Of a stretch of 64,000 nt of DNA, positions 14,887-64,000 are shown one piece after another (within the stretch, counting starts at the first letter, position 1; each line of letters begins with the position of its first letter). The translations under genes were made by a program, and so were the position numbers. The notes beneath the pieces were generated by a model that searched no databases, was not told where the DNA came from, and saw nothing but the letters and a program-made list of their open reading frames with translations. The stretch comes from Mesodorylaimus sp. YZB2_4 (lineage: Eukaryota > Nematoda > Enoplea > Dorylaimida > Dorylaimidae): positions 1,054,001 through 1,118,000 of the forward strand of contig JASANH010000938.1 in the NCBI GenBank assembly GCA_030248295.1, written 5' to 3'.

Positions 14887-17449
14887 TCAAGAATGACGGG
14901 GTGTCGTGGGCGTCAGAGGGGAGTGCTGGGTGGAATTTTCATCCATGACGTGAACGATGACGGACGGATGCTGCATGATTATCTGCTTGTCATCGGGCCC
15001 ACCAGACTGCTCCTTGAATTTGCGCTCGGTTGGACTGGCCTGCGGTTGCGTCTCTAAGACGTGGCCTTGATTGGGTTGGTGATTGGACAGGACCAGTTGC
15101 TGGTGGGACTCGGCTTCGTGTTGAGTGTGGCTTTGAAACGCGTGTGGTTGTTGGCCATGCTCATGCTCTTGCTCATCCACGCGTTTCCATTGGGACTGGA
15201 AAGGATGCTCTTCTTGGGCCTGCTTCGATTCGTGGTGAGGGTCCTGCTGGGAGAACTGGTGCTGGCCTTCCTGTCCTGTCTGACGAGGTTGAGATTCATG
15301 TCCTTGTTGCGACTGGACTTGTTTCTGCTCGTGGTGCTGTGCTTGGTGATCGTGTTGGGGTTGGCCAGAATCAGGCAGGCACTGGCCATTCACGCAATGA
15401 AAGCCCAGTGCATTGACTCCTTGTGCCTGCGCCTGTCCGAGAACATGTTCTCCTTCTGATTGCAATTGCCTCTGAATTTGATCGATACCATTGCCAATTG
15501 TGTTTGGGGGCAATACAGGGACCCCTGGTGGAGGCTGACCCAGATGACTGGGACCGAATGGATTCTCAGGGACAGTCGGGTGACCACCGAATAGCGCTTT
15601 GTGAAGATCCGAACCAGCTGGTGACCCCGCTCCTGGAGTTGCAGGCGGCGAAACGGAACGCTCTCCAATGGGACTCGCTCGAGGCCATTCGACAAAGGGT
15701 GGTCGTTGAACCGGACCATGGGGAAAGGGAATGCCTGGAAAGTGGCCCTGAAGTTGCTGAGGTGCCAAAAGTGATTGTTGCGGGCTGCCGAATTGGCCAG
15801 TAAGACCGAAGGCTTGTTGGGCTGCCAGCACAGATTGTGATCCAGCAGGTCGCGTAGTTCCTGTCCACAACGACGGGTCCTTCCCATTATCGGACACAGT
15901 CCACGCCTCGACCGGCTGGTCATTGAATATTCGACGCTGACCAAAAACACCCAAAGCACGTCCTTGATCTAAACCTGGTCGTCGAGCCCTGCATTCTTCA
16001 TCAGCACATGAGGCCCGGTATCGGACTGTCAGTCTGAAAATAAATAGCACCTAGTAGCACCATTCATTACAAGTGAGTGGATCCCTGAAGAGGCTCTCTA
16101 GAAATGCAATATGAGCCGCAGCTGGAGATTTCACCCGTCAGGGTCATGTTTGGCATGAACCAGACCAGAAAAACTTAGTTTTTTCAATTTTAAATTTTAG
16201 TGGGCCGAAGCCTGCTTTAGCCAATAGCCAGCCAGCACTCAAACCTTCTAAACGAGGCTGCGCGGGGAGCGGCACACACAGTAGCGTCTGCGTGTGTCCA
16301 CTAGGAGCACCTCCACGCCGAGGGCATCAAGGAATGGACACCGACTTGCTCAGACGACTGCTGGTGGGCTTTGAACACTGTCGGTGCTCGACTACTCCTT
16401 TGACTTCAGGTCTTTCCACTCGGGACACCTCGAGAGTACCGGGTGAGTCACCCACGGCCTAGGGTGCAAGGCTAGCGTGGAGTCCCCAGTGATAGAGGTT
16501 GCGCCTCCATCACTGGGGATCGAACCCGGGATGAGTCCAGCCGCTCGCTCCCAAGCAATACGGAGAGGCAAATGCCGAATCGCTGCACTACCGCGGCCAC
16601 AGAAGACTTGGCTTGCCGCTTTGGGTTTTTTGCGTGGCCACTCTCTCTGGTAATACAGACCAGCTATCGCACAGATAATCTCACTCGCTATGATCGGGAA
16701 TTTGAATTATCTGGTCGGTGACTGCGGCAAATTGTGGGCCTCTCGGATCGATTGATTCCTGCGAAACTCTGAGTTGGTAAACACCGATGGGGTCATCACC
16801 CGAATATCCATCGTCCTGATCATTCACTTCGACCCTAATTATGGTCTCGTGCTGAAAGGATAACTCAAACAATGATCGAGGGTAGCACGGGTTGCATCGA
16901 AGACGCTGCAGCCCCGGGAGGCTGGTCACTCGGACCCATGGTGAGATGTCCCCTGACATGTCCCCTGACATGTCCCCTGACATGTCCCCTGACATGTCCC
17001 CTGCCCCAGTCAGCAGAACGTACCAAGAAAGAACTGATGACGAACGATGTGATCGGGTGGGTTGACGAGTCGGTGAATATCACATCGTCCTCATTCTCCT
17101 TCGCGTAGAATCGATTGATCAGAGTCGAACATTGCTGCCTGCAAGAAGTGAGTTCTCTTTCTTCCTATGGGCCTGCGTGCATACCCATGATGCAAGCACA
17201 GTGCACTCACCCTCCTCGCGGCACTTCAGTACAGTTCTTGACATAGATCACGAAATCACAGGGGTTGTATCGAGGACCGATACTGTCCGAATCACATTTT
17301 GTGCCACCCGCCGCTTTTTCCCGACTCAAAATCCGAAATCGAACCACTTCGAAATCGACAACTGCCAAATAAGCTCGGGTGTTGGAGGAAAGTAAAAAGT
17401 TAAAGAATGTCAACAAGACGACACGTACAAGCAAATCCATTTTGCCCAT
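14887..17449 (-). CDS. Secreted protein, Notch-ligand-like (MNNL/C2) N-terminus and Gln/His-rich tail, 573 aa
   Basis: Four exons in phase: 17449-17211, 17138-17024, 16905-16685, 16033-14887 (1722 nt). Signal peptide MGKMDLLVRVVLLTFFNFLL, then FEVVRFRILSREKAAGGTKC, two further Cys, a C2-like strand pair (IIRVEVNDQDDGYSGDDPIG) and a block SELTVRYRASCADEEC. The order (strand with RxRIL, CxxCDFVIYVKNC, acid-rich C2 strand, then LxVxYRxxC) resembles the MNNL domain and first cysteine of the DSL domain in Delta/Jagged ligands. No complete DSL or EGF repeats follow. From about residue 250 the protein is low-complexity, rich in Gln, His, Pro and Ser. No transmembrane segment is seen. The domain match is my inference from pattern; a generic C2-like secreted protein is the alternative. 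The 650-bp third intron hosts a SINE-like element. Confidence 0.7.
16250..16607 (-). mobile_element. tRNA-derived SINE-like element in intron
   Basis: On the minus strand the element starts near 16600 with an A-box-like GCGGTAGTGCAGCGATTCGG and a B box GGGTTCGATCCCC (plus coordinates about 16513-16526), the two internal RNA polymerase III promoter elements of a tRNA. The downstream body includes a hairpin (CCCCAGTGAT and its complement, about 16479-16517). The far edge near 16250 is approximate. Anticodon and acceptor stems do not fold as a working tRNA. Confidence 0.6.
16945..17004. repeat. 12-bp tandem repeat, about 5 copies, in intron
   Basis: Unit GACATGTCCCCT on the plus strand repeats with period 12. 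It lies in the intron 17023-16906 of the secreted minus-strand gene. Read on the transcribed strand each unit carries a CAG that could act as an acceptor, but only the CAG before 16905 keeps the downstream frame open. Confidence 0.9.
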
Positions 17450-18280: not shown

Positions 18281-19077
18281 TCAAGCACTTTCGACCACGG
18301 TGTTGATTTCGTCAGCGCGACGAGGACCCGGCTTCATGGGAATCCGGGTGAAGATGTCTTCGCCAATCCTGAATAAGAGAGGAGGATCAAATGGAAGGGC
18401 AATATACACGGGGGGGGGGGGGTACCTGGTGGCGGACCAGTAATCCTCGCATCGGCTTGTGGCCGACCTTATCGTCCAGGAAGCCAGGAGAATGTCGCGG
18501 CCACTTCGGAGCCAGCCAAAATCGCAACCCCGTTGACACTGACCAGACCAGGTTGTCACGGCTTTTTTCCCGCTCCAGTAAGCATGCAGCGTGAAAATCC
18601 GGCCGTAGAGCTGGCCGTGAACAGGAACATAGTTCGATCGTTCAGTGTACTCTAAAGAAATGTGCAAAAGACTTTGGAGTAAGGTTTTTTGTGGAACGAA
18701 ACTTCGCTTCGGGAGCCACCGCAGCCCATTCTTACCTTGCGCTTGGCCCCCACCACCCAGCCTAACACCCGTCCGGAATTCTCCAATCAATTTTCCATCT
18801 TCTGTCTGATTTAAGATCAACTCCGAACCGTGTTGATTGTACCACGCTCCTTTCAAATCGCATCCATCACCTACGGACAAGCGTGCCGTGCTCATGCAAG
18901 AAAGCGAACCCTCAAAGGACTGTTACCATGATCCGCAGGTTCGAACAGCTGCTCCGCTTCCTGATTCACGCCACGTTGTGGTGTTCGGTTCTCGTCAAGC
19001 ATGCTTTTTCTCCGTCCATGGTGCCGCTCGCTGCACGAGACAGCAGCGAACAGACACACGAATACGACCAGCCTCAT
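18281..19077 (-). CDS. Avidin-family biotin-binding protein, secreted, 199 aa
   Basis: Four exons in phase: 19077-18927, 18870-18736, 18651-18426, 18368-18281 (600 nt). MRLVVFVCLFAAVSC is a good signal peptide. The mature protein is a single avidin barrel: CDLKGAWYNQHGSELIL aligns with the first strand of avidin/streptavidin (the N and S of WxNxxGS contact biotin), GEFRTGV with the second, VPVHGQ with the loop before strand 5, VTTWSGQC with streptavidin ATTWSGQ (T90 and W92), LLASWTIRS with W108, EDYWSATR with W120 and IGEDIFTRI with the end strand carrying streptavidin D128. The Tyr of strand 2 is Phe, and the Trp at streptavidin position 79 is not clearly kept. Intron 1 is 56 nt. Intron 3 starts GTAC followed by a run of C. 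A longer start (ATG about 19110) is possible. Biotin binding is inferred from residues. Confidence 0.9.
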
Positions 19078-20249: not shown

Positions 20250-20921
20250 ATGATAAAGATACGTTATCTTTTTGGACTCGCATTGATCGTGTCATTTTTA
20301 AATCCTATCCAGACACAGATATTGTGGTATTATGTGACCCGTAAGTATCCAGGGAGGACGAGCGAGTAAAAGCCAAAATCAAATGCATGTTCCAGCCTAC
20401 TTGTCCACGCGGGGTGTCAGTGTGCTGAGAGGCAATGGAACTGGTGCCCCGATCGGAAATATCCAGTTCAGTCAGAATACCTTGTACGGGCCTGTCATCG
20501 TTCAAGGAGCAGTGAACGGCCTGACACCCGGCTTACACCGTGTCATGATCCACCGTTTTGGCGACGTGACCAACGGGTGCCTGAGCATCGGACCTTTGTT
20601 CAATCCTGAGCAAGCCCCCAATGGATGGACAACGGGCATTACTCGGCCCGTGGGTGACCTGGGTGTTGTGCAAGTCGGACTGGTAACTGATTTACCTCCC
20701 ACGATTGTCACGCCCCAATATGTAAACACTTTTAGAATGGCGTGGCCCAACTCTCGCTCTCTGATACCATAATAACACTACATGGACGGAATAACATTAT
20801 TGGACGCACCCTGGCCATCCACGAGTTCAGCGGCCAGGTAACCGCTGGTGGCAATGCCATCGGTAATGTTGGGCCCACTGTGGCCTGTGGTGTCATTGGA
20901 CTGGCTGCAGAGATTCCTTGA
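20250..20921 (+). CDS. Secreted Cu/Zn-superoxide-dismutase-fold protein without an intact metal site, 187 aa
   Basis: Three exons: 20250-20340, 20396-20682, 20736-20921 (564 nt). Signal peptide MIKIRYLFGLALIVSFL. The SOD fold is clear: GNIQFSQ, GLTPGLH, RFGDVTNGC, GPLFNP, PVGDLG, NGVAQLSL, IIGRTLAIHE and VACGVIGLA match SOD1 in order. Against human SOD1 numbering, Cu ligands H48 and H120 remain but H46 is Met and the bridging H63 is Leu. Zn ligands H71 and H80 are Asn and Pro; only D83 is kept. The active-site R143 is Thr. The disulfide pair C57/C146 is kept. It is therefore a probable pseudoenzyme: fold and disulfide conserved, catalysis almost certainly lost. Frame and splice sites are intact, so it is not a pseudogene. 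AATAAA lies at 21120-21125. Confidence 0.9.
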
Positions 20922-22515
20922 AAATGACCAGGTGTATGTTATGTGAGTCATGTAGTTATTCAGTACGTACTGTGGTAGTGCATTGTAGAGCATTTTATCG
21001 CAGCTGTGCTCTTAGCAGAGGGAAATAATGACCAAAGTGAATCATGTTATTGGAGCATCGTATAAAAAACTTTCAAATTTCTGAGGAAGTCGCTGTCTAA
21101 AAGGCACCTAAAGCACTTAAATAAAGATTTTCACGAGATGCGGTTCGAAAGTAGTGCATGATGATGCCTTCTGCTTTCAGCACCAAGCATCCCTGCATTC
21201 CTCATGAGCAAGCCTACACAACCAAGGTAATCCCATTCCTCTAAACCCAGTCCCGTGCCATCTTCTGACATACCATTGAGTACCTCTAACCTCTTGTCAT
21301 CTAGCACATAGCATGGCAACCCGAGAATCCATATCCAAAACATAACTTATTCAAAGTCCACTTCGTTGTCACGCTCTGATGGAATACTCCACCCGTAACG
21401 AACAGCAGCTGTCTGACTCGTCACTCATCCGCGCGGCTTATGAAATTTGTTGTTGCTAAAGTGAGGCTGATGAGGCTAAAAATGGAATGGACGCAGAATG
21501 GTGCCTAAATGTTTGTGCTTAGTAGAGGTGTCAAATGAAAGAGTGGGTGGTGATGATGAACAGAAATGTCTCGATCGCACTCGTGTCATGCCCTTGCGCA
21601 TTGCGTCCTTACCCTTTACCTATGTACATTATATCGAGATGTGATGGATCATGATGGTCTCACTCTCCCACTATGTCAGTCCTGAAAGTCTGGTGACGTT
21701 CCTCACTCGATCATGTACTCCATGTTCGAGTTGATCTTTCTAGAAAACCTCGAACACTCGTGTTACTGTGTTGACATATCTCTGCTCCCTTGTACAAGAA
21801 GTTTATGGGGCGAGCTTAAAAAGCCTCCCCCACTTTTAGCCCGTGCTCGCCAGGCATTTTGCACGTGCTCCTTTATTCACAGTATGTCAGCAGATTTTTC
21901 TGAGCTGGAAAAAATTCCTCGTCAAATACCTTTTGAACATTACTTTTCAGTCTCAATAGCTTTACCTCCTACAGCCCTTAAAATTTCTTAGACGACCCGC
22001 TGCCGGGCACGTGAACGGCTTGCAGTTCCATGGAGACGGGCAAACAAGCACGTGAAAACAGTGAGTGCTGACCAATAGGCTGATTGCTAGCACGACCAGT
22101 GGGCGGGGTGACGAGGTCTGGCTGGCCTATGTATTCACTGGTTTCCTCACTCCGTCGCTCTCTTGTATTGATCACACTCCGTCAAGGCAATCCGTCTCGA
22201 GTCGTCCTGCAAACGTCTGCCCGTTCGAGAACCACGGCAGAGTGAGAAGAGTAATTTAGAAGTTGGGTTCGGCTAATCCAAGCATTAAAAAAACTCGACT
22301 GCCGCGCCTTCTGCCAGCCTAACCTACCTGTCCCTTTTTCATTTTGGCCAATCCCTATTTGGCTTAGCGCTCACGCCGCAGCCTAAGTAAGGCTGGTGTC
22401 TTATCGCCGTTTACTATCTGTAAACACTTGAACTCTTATTCGGGATTATGCAATCCGTCTTGTCTGCAATATAAAACGAGACACCCTCTCTGTTTTTGAG
22501 ATTGCAAAATCGAAG
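20922..22515. other. Spacer and upstream region of the first DUSP gene
   Basis: Holds a poly(A) signal at 21120-21125 for the SOD-like gene and, nearer the phosphatase, CACGTG motifs, a CCAAT box and a TATA-like box listed separately. No exon recognised. Confidence 0.5.
22006..22082 (+). promoter_or_regulatory. E-box and CCAAT cluster upstream of first DUSP gene
   Basis: GGGCACGTGAACGGC at 22006-22020, GCACGTGAAAAC at 22049-22060 and CCAATAGGC near 22072-22080. The same CACGTGAACGGC and CCAATAG sequences occur in the promoter of the second DUSP paralogue (25016-25052). A TATA-like ATATAAAA lies at about 22469-22476, some 45 bases before the ATG. Confidence 0.5.
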
Positions 22516-23244
22516 ATGCCCTCGTTCCAAGTCAATGCTAAATGGGCAGCCATGTCCGAGGTGGTGCCTGGCTTGTACATCAGCGGTGTGTGCGCCCTGA
22601 AGCCGACGACGTTGCAGGCCCTGAACATCAACCTGATCGTGAACTGCACTAAAGAAGTGCCCAACATGAATATGATGCCCCAGTGCGAACGTGTGAAGCT
22701 CTGGCTGGACGACACGGACGATACTGATCTGAGCTGCCATTTGGAGACTGTTTCCGATCACATACGATTCATTCTAAGCGGTGGTGGCCGCGCACTGGTG
22801 CACTGCGTGGCTGGTGTGTCCCGATCAGCCGCTCTATGTTTGGCCTACCTGATGAAATACGAGTCGATGAGCTTACGCCAAGCCTTTCGATACTTATCCC
22901 TGCGTCGACCCATGGTCAGACCTAACTTGGGATTTTGGAAGCAGTTGATCGATTACGAACGCAAGCTTAGACCAACTCGATCATCCAGCGTCCGTATCGT
23001 GGCTGTGTCCACCACTAAGACGGAGGAAGGAGAGGAAATTGTACAGTTTCTGCCGGACGTCTACTTGCAACCAACTAATGCGATCAAGGAAGCTGCAAAG
23101 GACAATCCGGACGAGGACAAGGAAAATGATAGAAAGTCGCCCACTTTCCCGCTATACATCGATCTATACGAGAAAAGGAGGCACAGTTCGGGCAGTGGTC
23201 ATGTCAGATTCGTGCCTCGTTTAGCTTCCGTACCAGAAATCTAA
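22516..23244 (+). CDS. Dual-specificity phosphatase, DUSP14/18-like, 242 aa, intronless
   Basis: A small cytoplasmic-type dual-specificity protein phosphatase in one exon. The start MPSFQVNAKWAAMSEVVPG leads directly into the catalytic domain. The signature VHCVAGVSRSAA carries the Cys nucleophile and Arg; the general acid Asp is in WLDDTDDTD. NLGFWKQLIDYERKL is typical of the DUSP14/18/21 branch, which lacks MAPK-docking (CH2) domains. The C-terminal 80 residues are acidic and basic by turns and not conserved in the family. The close paralogue at 25165-25869 is also intronless and has the same domain limits (MPVFQVNAAWAAMTEIIPN), so the pair arose by tandem duplication. Substrates cannot be told from sequence. 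Confidence 0.92.
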   Translation: MPSFQVNAKWAAMSEVVPGLYISGVCALKPTTLQALNINLIVNCTKEVPNMNMMPQCERVKLWLDDTDDTDLSCHLETVSDHIRFILSGGGRALVHCVAGVSRSAALCLAYLMKYESMSLRQAFRYLSLRRPMVRPNLGFWKQLIDYERKLRPTRSSSVRIVAVSTTKTEEGEEIVQFLPDVYLQPTNAIKEAAKDNPDEDKENDRKSPTFPLYIDLYEKRRHSSGSGHVRFVPRLASVPEI

Positions 23245-25164
23245 GATTTCTACGAAGACTGATGGCTATTGACGCACGCTACTCTCAAAAGCTTATTTTT
23301 CGCATGCTTTGCCCTTTTTTGTATATGCCGTATCTTGCTATGCTGAAAGAATGGCACCGGAAAGTCGTGTTCTTGGTTTTTAGCTTGCCCTTACAAATTA
23401 CCAGCAATCAATAGTTTCATGCAGTTGCCAGAATCGCTTTAGGGACCAAGTGGCTGGTTTGCATCGAAGGGGCAATGGGACAATGAAAGTGGCAGAGTGT
23501 CTTGCAACTCAATCAATAGACTGTGTCGGCTGTTCTTGTCCTTGCCGATAGCAGTTAGGTGAGTCGTGGTTAATAAACCTTTCCTTCGCCGCCTAGCCGA
23601 GTCAGGCAAGCGTGACGTGCGCGTGAATGGTAGTGCCAGCCGCATCCATCACCGCCTCCACCAGATAAGAATTGGCTCAGTATGTGCACTTGCAAGCACT
23701 GCTGCCATAAAAAACGGGTAGGGTGCTCGCCAGCAAGGAGTGACACGCCTTGGAATTCAGCCTTGCTAGCACCGGAAGCTGAGTGATAACATGTGGCGGG
23801 TTATCTGTTCGGCTGGTTAGACACCACGGCGGCGATGGCAACGTGCGGAAGGAGAGAGAACAGGGAAATGAACATAGGCTCATCGTTAGAGGCTAGCAAA
23901 AAATACTTGCTCGAAGACAAAACCAATACAGCTTTGTGATAAGCAGAGCTCATATCACGTAAGTGTGTAATGTATCACCCCTGCAGTAAAATCCAATCCA
24001 TCTCCAGGTTTCTTTGTCGAGCTTGAAAGTTTCTCCCATCTGCATGGGTTGGCATACTAAGAATGGAGAAGCATGACTCAATGCAAGCTATTCAGTTCAT
24101 TACCAACAGCTCAAAGGTCAGTTGTGCAAAAGGACAAGTCTGGGAACCAAAGGCGCAAAGGTCACCTAATGCATCAGTGCATGCAGATGAATGGGCAGGC
24201 TCGCGGTGCAAATTTCATTTTATCATCAAGATTGATTCCAGGGTCCCCTACTTGGACTTTGCACCGTGCGTAACTGCACAATGCCCCCTTCTTGGAAAGT
24301 GCAATGGTTACTGCTAATATTAGCCATTGTCGTGGGCGGAACGACTGTTCGATAGTTCAAAGAACAGTGCCATGGTTACTCGTGCTTCCTCTTTCAGGAA
24401 GTCTAAAAAGAAGAAAACTGAACTCACTATTTTTAAACTTTTTCTAGCAAGCTATTGGCTAGTGCAGTGTTCTATGACAGCTATTGTGAGTTTGTGTAAG
24501 CAATCAGCTTGTGCTACATAAACATATCCGCTCTCTTTTTAAGCTTCTTTGGAAGAAGCCTTGGAAAAAGTCACGTTTTCTGCCCTTTGCTGCAAAGCGC
24601 TCATAAAAATCCAATGTCGGCTGGATATTGTGCAGGTGATGCGCACGTGAACGAAAAGAATTCCGTTCGCATATAAAATTTTTTTTTTTCTCGGAAATGC
24701 TGACTGTGCGTTCACGTGCTGGGGAGATGGTTGAAGGAGCGAGCCAGCCCGGCACCAGTCGGCACGTCGGGAACAGAGCACCGGAAACAGTGTTTACCTG
24801 CACCCTTGATTGGAGCCCTAAAGATGGCCATTGACGATCCCGCTAAGTAAACCTTTAATCATTCATAACAAGCTGAGCAAACAGCGAGCCCAGTGCACTT
24901 TCCCGAGCTCCCCTTTGCGTCATTCGAAGAAGCACGATCAATAAGGTCTAGCAAACCACTGCAGCCAGCCCAGCTAACATATAGCACCCTCCACCCCACC
25001 CTCTTATACACATTGGTCCAATAGCAACGGGTGCGTTCACGTGAACGGCACGTCCTAGTGGGTGCATAGGCGTGCATGTCACGTATATAAGGCCCGGGAG
25101 AACAGCCTGAGCAGTCATTCCGTTCTCTGTCAGACTAAAGAAAAGTGGGATAAAGATACAAAGA
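23245..25164. other. Spacer between DUSP paralogues
   Basis: About 1.9 kb. Contains further CACGTG motifs (24643-24652, 24711-24718) and the core promoter of the second paralogue near 25016-25092. No coding exon recognised. Confidence 0.5.
25016..25090 (+). promoter_or_regulatory. Core promoter of second DUSP gene: CCAAT, palindromic E-box, TATA
   Basis: CCAATAGCAACGG at about 25018, the perfect palindrome GTTCACGTGAAC at 25035-25046 followed by GGCACGT, and TATATAA at 25084-25090, about 75 bases before the ATG. The order CCAAT, CACGTG, TATA is that of a focused, inducible promoter. The binding factor (bHLH-type) is inference. Confidence 0.65.
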
Positions 25165-25869
25165 ATGCCCGTATTTCAAGTCAATGCCGCATGGGCGGCC
25201 ATGACTGAAATCATACCAAACTTGTACATATGCGGAGTGTCCGCCTTGAAGCAAAGTTCTATTCTCGCCTTGAATTTTGATTTGGTGGTGAATTGTACGA
25301 AGGAAGTGCCAAATATGAACTCGCTACCACCAGACGTTGAAAGATTGAAGTTGTGGTTGGACGATACGGAAGAAACGGACTTGGCCTCGTCGTTGGACAT
25401 GGCTGTGGATTACATCAGGATGATCCTCGAGGTCGACGGACGGGTTCTCGTGCATTGCGTTGCCGGAGTGAGCAGAAGTGCAGCCGTGTGCTTGGCTTAC
25501 TTGGTCAAATACGAATCGATGACTCTTCGTCAAGCCTATGAACACATGGCAGCGAGGAGGGCACGGGTTCGACCAAATTTGGGTTTCTGGCGTCAGTTAA
25601 TCGAGTTCGAAATGGAACTGCGAGGAGAGAAGAGTGTGGTCATCAAGAAATGCTTGGGTGACCAGGAGCTGCCCGATGTCTACGAGGGTGTGGTGGAGAG
25701 CCAACTCGATCTGATTCCTCCCCAGCCATTCGCAAAGGAAAATGAACTGTCGCCTTCCTATTGCCAGTCCAAGAAAGAGGAGAGAAAACGACAACGTCAA
25801 TTATCAGACACTGAAAATGGGAAAAGATTTGTGCCAAAGTTGGAACCAGTTATTGAAGTGGAACAATAA
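25165..25869 (+). CDS. Dual-specificity phosphatase, DUSP14/18-like, 234 aa, intronless paralogue
   Basis: Paralogue of the gene at 22516-23244, same strand, one exon. The catalytic loop is VHCVAGVSRSAAVCLAYL, the acid loop WLDDTEETD, and the end of the domain NLGFWRQLIEFEMEL. The N-terminal 20 residues are nearly identical to the paralogue, and the catalytic domain is similar throughout; the C-terminal tails diverge, this one ending in a Lys/Arg/Gln-rich stretch and RFVPKLEPVIEVEQ, while the first ends RFVPRLASVPEI. Shared tail motif RFVPxL suggests a conserved role for the C-terminus. Both active-site Cys and Arg are present, so both are predicted active. Confidence 0.92.
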   Translation: MPVFQVNAAWAAMTEIIPNLYICGVSALKQSSILALNFDLVVNCTKEVPNMNSLPPDVERLKLWLDDTEETDLASSLDMAVDYIRMILEVDGRVLVHCVAGVSRSAAVCLAYLVKYESMTLRQAYEHMAARRARVRPNLGFWRQLIEFEMELRGEKSVVIKKCLGDQELPDVYEGVVESQLDLIPPQPFAKENELSPSYCQSKKEERKRQRQLSDTENGKRFVPKLEPVIEVEQ

Positions 25870-63324: not shown

Positions 63325-64000
63325 TCACGGTTTCTCTGGCATCCCCAGTGGCGGTGGCGGTGGCGGGGCGCCGGCCCCCGCACCACTCGGTCCATCCGGA
63401 GTTTCAGGCTGTTGAGGTTGAGGCGGTGGTTCAGGATGTTGAGGTTGAGGCGGTGGTTCAGGATGTTGAGGTTGAGGCGGTGGTTCAGGATGTTGAGGTT
63501 GAGGCGGTGGTTCAGGATGTTGAGGTTGAGGCGGTGGTTCAGGATGTTGAGGTTGAGGCGGTGGTTCAGGATGTTGAGGTTGAGGCGGTGGTTCAGGATG
63601 TTGAGGTTGAGGTTGAGGCGGTGGTTCAGGATGTTGAGGTTGAGGTTGAGGCGGTGGTTCAGGATGTTGAGGTTGAGGTTGAGGCGGTGGTTCAGGATGT
63701 TGAGGTTGAGGCGGTGGTGGCGGGGTACCGGTCCCCGTACTGCTCGGTCCATCCGGAATTTCAGGCTGTTGAGGTGGTGGTGCTCCGTCTCCGCTTCCGC
63801 CATCCCCAGCGTCAGGTGCCTTTGGGGAGGTCCTCGCACCCTCATCATCATTCCTTCCACCATCGGGGTTTCGAGTCGTTCGACGTGGGATCCCGTCCCC
63901 GCCAACACCCACTGCACCGTCGGGATTCTCATGCGGTGGAGGAGGCGACCAGACTGGAGTAGTAAAGCGACTTTGACTGGTGGTGTTGACGGTCGTAAAC
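63325..64000 (-). CDS. Proline-rich tandem-repeat protein, partial, runs off window
   Basis: The minus-strand frame is open from the window edge to a stop at 63325-63327, so the 5' end is missing. From the edge it reads Thr/Ser-rich (TTVNTTSQSRFTTPVW), then Gly/Asp-rich, then about eleven units of a nine-residue repeat PEPPPQPQH, three of them with an extra PQ, then PSGAGAGAPPPPPPLGMPEKP. The flanks of the array are near-copies (PEIPDGPSSTG and PETPDGPSGAG). The repeat unit is 27 bp, so all frames stay open; the proline frame was chosen because its flanks are also proline-rich and it ends cleanly. An extracellular or structural role is possible. No domain recognised. Confidence 0.6.
   Translation of the reverse strand, partial: FTTVNTTSQSRFTTPVWSPPPPHENPDGAVGVGGDGIPRRTTRNPDGGRNDDEGARTSPKAPDAGDGGSGDGAPPPQQPEIPDGPSSTGTGTPPPPPQPQHPEPPPQPQPQHPEPPPQPQPQHPEPPPQPQPQHPEPPPQPQHPEPPPQPQHPEPPPQPQHPEPPPQPQHPEPPPQPQHPEPPPQPQHPEPPPQPQQPETPDGPSGAGAGAPPPPPPLGMPEKP
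63410..63720. repeat. 27-bp minisatellite (with 33-bp variants)
   Basis: About eleven copies of GGCGGTGGTTCAGGATGTTG plus seven bases, with three adjacent copies carrying an extra six-base GAGGTT. The units are nearly identical, so copy number is likely variable in the population. Confidence 0.9.

Follow-up and report, generated by a model that had tools for sequence, protein, structure and literature searches.

Within the window (the whole stretch of 64,000 nucleotides analysed here) lies an intact, spliced gene encoding a member of the avidin family, biotin-binding proteins whose most familiar examples come from egg white and Streptomyces. The gene is unexpected in a nematode, yet it belongs to a well-known family and represents no new kind of system. 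Its product is likely a secreted avidin barrel that would bind biotin more weakly and reversibly than streptavidin, most plausibly withholding it from other organisms. Animal avidins are named from vertebrates, sea urchin and lancelet in PMC8033661, to which a published snail sequence can be added (PMC3963999). No nematode avidin was present among the literature matches listed, although one may still exist in publications or databases beyond those matches. A nematode member extends the known family to a moulting animal, and bears on the question of an ancient animal origin of avidin followed by many losses.

Gene structure and family membership

The gene lies on the minus strand of the window (19077-18281), with its ATG at 19077 and its stop codon ending at 18281, and comprises four exons encoding 199 codons. 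The three introns measure 56, 84 and 57 nt, lie in phases 1, 1 and 2, and are all bounded by GT-AG. According to the gene model and a hydropathy computation, exon 1 (18927..19077) encodes the predicted leader MRLVVFVCLFAAVSC, with a hydropathy peak of 3.3, followed by a polar linker of 36 residues that includes the basic segment GRRKS and reaches residue 52, and it ends in phase 1 at intron 1 (18871..18926). Exon 2 (18736..18870) encodes the predicted barrel strands 1-3, from CDLKGAWYNQHGSELIL to GEFRTGV, with the equivalents of Cys4, Asn12 and Ser16, and is separated by intron 2 (18652..18735) from exon 3 (18426..18651), which contains the segments TTWSGQC, ASWTIRS and EDYW and the equivalents of Trp70, Trp79, Cys83, Trp97 and Trp110; both assignments combine the gene model with alignment and the Pfam match. 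Intron 3 (18369..18425), with a run of 13 C, precedes exon 4 (18281..18368), which by gene model and alignment encodes the predicted final strand IGEDIFTRI, with the equivalent of streptavidin Asp128 and chicken Asn118, the C-terminal tail and the stop. The lengths of introns 2 and 3 are divisible by three and neither contains a stop, intron 2 being open by chance, so that exons 2-4 also fall within a single open frame of 213 codons. Both were taken as introns because of their splice sites and of the alignments to chicken avidin and xenavidin, which run gap-free across the site of intron 3; the site of intron 2 falls in a loop of variable length. An acceptor-like TTTTAG located 19 bases before the ATG would be compatible with trans-splicing or with a leader intron.

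The original prediction of a spliced avidin with a leader and three introns is borne out by the four-exon frame, the GT-AG sites, the hydrophobic leader and a match to the Pfam Avidin family (PF01382) spanning residues 56-178 and profile positions 2-116 of 116 (E = 5.6e-20; 72.3 bits, with a curated cut-off of 24 bits). Searching the PDB with the window protein returned 166 distinct sequences at E-values up to 1, led by an engineered double-chain chicken avidin (61.2 bits) and xenavidin (52.7 bits), and the names among the best 60 of the 166 were avidin, xenavidin, zebavidin, tamavidin, streptavidin and engineered forms of these. The predicted structure model, built from the unspliced frame, was poor (mean pLDDT 43.7); in a Foldseek search with it, avidin-family chains nevertheless accounted for all five matches at E ≤ 0.001, with tamavidin on top. 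The leader indicates that the product is probably secreted. Two N-glycosylation sequons are present, at residues 30 and 71. Cys54 and Cys134 align with chicken avidin Cys4 and Cys83, and Cys138 and Cys163 may form a second bridge.

Related copies and the origin of the gene

A Pfam search of the assembly identified one avidin locus besides the window gene (C59:59089-59286; listed as L004 with bounds C59:59077-59289), which is open and lacks the 5' exons. A search with the two exons of this copy added a truncated copy with one stop (L005, C59:65721-65816) and another with two stops (L057, C83:425986-426141); the stops of the latter fall in exon 3, and from its sequence it reads as a pseudogene. 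In the first C59 copy, exon 3 is open and starts in phase 1, and the last exon is split at the phase-2 position of window intron 3. No exons 1-2 of this copy were detected in the approximately 19 kb upstream with an N-terminal-half profile (top hit at E = 0.42, noise), nor in the 2.6 kb upstream that were read in three frames. A weak match on contig C4 (E = 1.05) was discarded as an avidin copy, since a profile scan gave no support. The search scores best candidates only and the copy count is hence a lower bound; among the copies found, the window gene is the only full-frame avidin gene.

Like the window protein, xenavidin and chicken avidin consist of a single avidin domain preceded by a leader, with the Cys4-Cys83 pair and the four aromatic positions of the pocket, and the chicken avidin gene is likewise divided into four exons by three introns (PMC1082904). 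Identity to these two proteins is 28-31% (BLAST), and the window protein differs from them in having Asp for Asn118, Phe33, Ala75 and His14, longer loops that carry two additional Cys, the 36-residue linker and an intron 2 that is apparently placed elsewhere. Judged by its published description, zebavidin of zebrafish shares with the window Trp at 79, Asp at 118, a Lys near Ser73 and four exons, but keeps Tyr33 and Leu16 in that paper's numbering (PMC3811995). The zebrafish exons are given there as 87, 211, 120 and 42 bp (PMC3811995), lengths which would place the third vertebrate intron within a few bases of window intron 3 and the second at no matching position. Streptavidin and the bacterial avidins (L006-L020) share with the window the TTWSGQ-type strand, Asp128 and the pocket Trp residues, Trp120 being absent from L018; the bacterial avidins differ from it in their continuous, intron-free frames, the absence of the Cys pair and an identity of 27-32% (BLAST). 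Tamavidin, from a fungus, belongs to the same family but has no Cys pair, unlike the window protein. It is cytoplasmic in the mushroom and toxic to nematodes (PMC6238071).

The TTWSGQ strand and the Asp had been put forward as features closer to streptavidin than to chicken avidin. This reading is not supported: zebavidin has Trp78 and Asp117 at these positions (PMC3811995), xenavidin has the Trp, and the authors describing zebavidin regard both substitutions as common within avidins (PMC3811995). Because the fish protein shares both residues, they do not demonstrate a bacterial origin.

Two origins were weighed, and both are compatible with the proposed function. We favour, with some reserve, an old animal avidin that was inherited vertically and lost in many lineages. 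Among 18 sequences compared by BLAST, xenavidin scored highest against the window protein (51.0 bits), followed by Actinosynnema L017 (49.5) and chicken avidin (40.4), with the others lower; chicken avidin, in an engineered double-chain form, and xenavidin also lead the PDB matches. Cys4 and Cys83 are present in the window protein, chicken avidin and xenavidin, and neither occurs in any of 11 bacterial rows or in tamavidin. The Cys pair and the xenavidin score thus point weakly to animal descent. The Lys at or next to Ser73, as in zebavidin, points the same way, with the loop alignment unsure, as does the publication of a snail 'exported avidin family protein' (PMC3963999). A 15-row tree, which omits zebavidin, the Streptomyces near-copies L008-L010, L015 and L016 and the partial C59 copy, gave the window sequence a long branch and no firmly supported place; the best tree has it on one side of a branch with chicken avidin and xenavidin, with a support of 71/62, which is not significant. 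Also at odds with descent, the two other readable copies carry Phe (C59) and Tyr (C83) at position 83, as bacteria do, versus Cys in the window, and intron 2 lies off the place implied by the vertebrate exon lengths.

The alternative, in which an ancestor of the nematode captured a bacterial avidin gene that then gained introns and was duplicated, is the less probable of the two, at roughly one chance in three. It draws on the proximity of L017 to xenavidin in score, above chicken avidin, on the lack of Cys83 in the C59 and C83 copies, and on a constrained tree joining the window sequence to L017-L020 (four bacterial sequences that do not belong to the streptavidin clade), which was not rejected (p-AU 0.161). 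Two peptide patterns applied to the genomes of 84,980 species yielded 33 stretches and 14 confirmed loci, with no close donor among them: the 12 loci compared all lie near 27-32% identity to the window protein, the maximum over these 12 and two plasmid rows being 32% (BLAST), and the identity rises to at most 36% in a MAFFT alignment of some of these sequences. Against 72,556 plasmid records, the window protein gave no match at E 0.01; a streptavidin query matched 42 plasmid records. The 21 pattern stretches found in viral contigs included no relative, and among 396 actinobacterial genomes sampled for avidins the only positive was the sampling centre itself. A further point against capture is that the window gene and the C59 copy have the place and phase of intron 3 in common, and therefore at least this intron is older than the duplication. 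On balance, the origin leans to animal descent.

The biotin pocket and possible role

Most biotin-contact positions had been predicted to be kept, in agreement with a 16-row alignment in which the window protein carries the streptavidin or chicken residue at 10 of the 16 streptavidin positions listed for the pocket (23, 27, 45, 47, 79, 90, 92, 108, 120 and 128, streptavidin numbering). The kept residues include W79, W92, W108, W120, N23, S27, T90 and D128. The departures are His at 25, Phe at 43, Gly at 49, a gap at 86, Ala at 88 and Ile at 110, among them the changes Y43F, S88A, L25H and L110I; in the same alignment, positions 88 and 110 of the C59 copy remain Ser and Leu. A Lys lies at or beside the position of Ser73, where the loop alignment is unsure. 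Since Asn23, Ser27, the four pocket Trp and Asp128 are retained, the window avidin is likely to bind biotin. Weaker and more reversible binding is expected because of the changes from Tyr43 to Phe, Ser88 to Ala and Leu25 to His, which would make it a real but weaker binder, nearer to zebavidin, which is reported to release biotin about 100,000-fold faster than the extrapolated rate for chicken avidin (PMC3811995). An avidin fold without biotin binding, serving in oligomer formation or storage like the avidin domain of fibropellin, appears unlikely: the Phe, Ala and His substitutions and the Lys near the valerate end speak for it, and fibropellins illustrate that binding can end through few changes (PMC8033661), but the four Trp, Asn23, Ser27, Thr90 and Asp128 are all retained, and the window protein shows neither of the fibropellin changes, Trp70 to Arg and Trp110 to Lys, with which chicken avidin loses almost all binding (PMC8033661).

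For the favoured reading, a weakly binding secreted avidin, the following sequence of events is proposed. The leader would export the protein from the cell, with the polar linker perhaps trimmed, and the domain would fold into an eight-stranded barrel closed by a disulphide of the Cys4-Cys83 type, as in vertebrate avidins. Dimers or tetramers would form in which Trp110 is lent to the neighbour's site. Biotin would be held between Trp70, Trp79, Trp97 and the Trp110 of the neighbour, while Asn12, Ser16 and Asp118 would contact its ureido ring. The absence of Tyr33, Ser75 and Leu14 (chicken numbering) would render binding weaker and more reversible than in streptavidin, and nearer to zebavidin.

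The most likely use of such a protein would be the withholding of biotin from microbes or egg eaters, in secreted fluid or in the egg. Avidins are thought to guard eggs against microbes, and those of lancelets increase with bacterial and heat stress (PMC8033661); among BlastX-matched genes specific to the haemocytes of resistant snails, the one for the snail avidin showed the largest change (PMC3963999). Zebrafish avidin, however, is reported to be needed neither for development nor for resisting one pathogen (PMC13425791), and a role in defence can therefore not be taken for granted. The nematode genome yielded no match to the BATS domain of biotin synthase, which was detected in 8 of 14 control genomes, and a single match to the biotin/lipoate ligase family, with stops when introns are ignored. 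This profile suggests that the nematode likely depends on outside biotin; lacking the BATS domain, the worm would have to keep its avidin away from its own biotin, and secretion would keep the protein from its carboxylases. With tamavidin 1, fewer than 4% of the nematodes counted in the control were left (PMC6238071), and a nematode with its own avidin is paradoxical given that a fungal avidin is toxic to nematodes. As a tentative and rather doubtful extension, a biotin-dependent nematode may secrete its own reversible avidin to defend its eggs or body surface, in a phylum where a fungal avidin poisons the members tested, with the other members of a once larger nematode avidin family decaying in the same genome.

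Host genome and neighbouring features

The assembly (145 Mb, 1067 contigs) contains 133 matches to Col_cuticle_N, a domain typical of nematodes, versus none in the 14 prokaryotic control genomes. The window contig, C2, holds six of the cuticle-collagen matches (27158, 30289, 188368, 535951, 1130010 and 2181763), one of them 12 kb outside the window, and a further one lies on C59. In one of 20 contig-end stretches examined, the start of C17, a 632-base array of CCTAAG units was found (73% matches); (TTAGGC)n is described as the canonical nematode repeat (PMC10844300). The collagens and the TTAGGC-type array uphold the claim of a nematode-like genome, and the six collagen matches on C2 assign the window contig to the nematode. 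Bacterial contamination is rejected in view of the three introns and of the nematode-type genes with which the avidin gene shares its 2.45-Mb contig, and a tardigrade origin, raised by the altered superoxide dismutase near the avidin gene, in view of the cuticle collagens and TTAGGC-type repeats.

This neighbour (20250-20921, plus strand) is a spliced, leader-bearing relative of Cu/Zn superoxide dismutase, with introns of 55 and 53 nt. Several metal-binding His are missing in its alignment to human SOD1 chains, with Met at 46, Leu at 63, Asn at 71 and Pro at 80, and the product is probably no active dismutase. Elsewhere in the assembly, COX3-like stretches (L060, C225:58067-58609; L061 and L062, C96:2719-3337) contain several stops when read in the standard code; they may be mitochondrial DNA within nuclear contigs, or the stops may be due to the mitochondrial code. 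The window also contains two neighbouring plus-strand frames with dual-specificity phosphatase domains (22432-23241 and 25111-25866), about five copies of the 12-base repeat TGACATGTCCCC (16942-17003) and an array of 11 copies of a 27-base unit (63403-63718).
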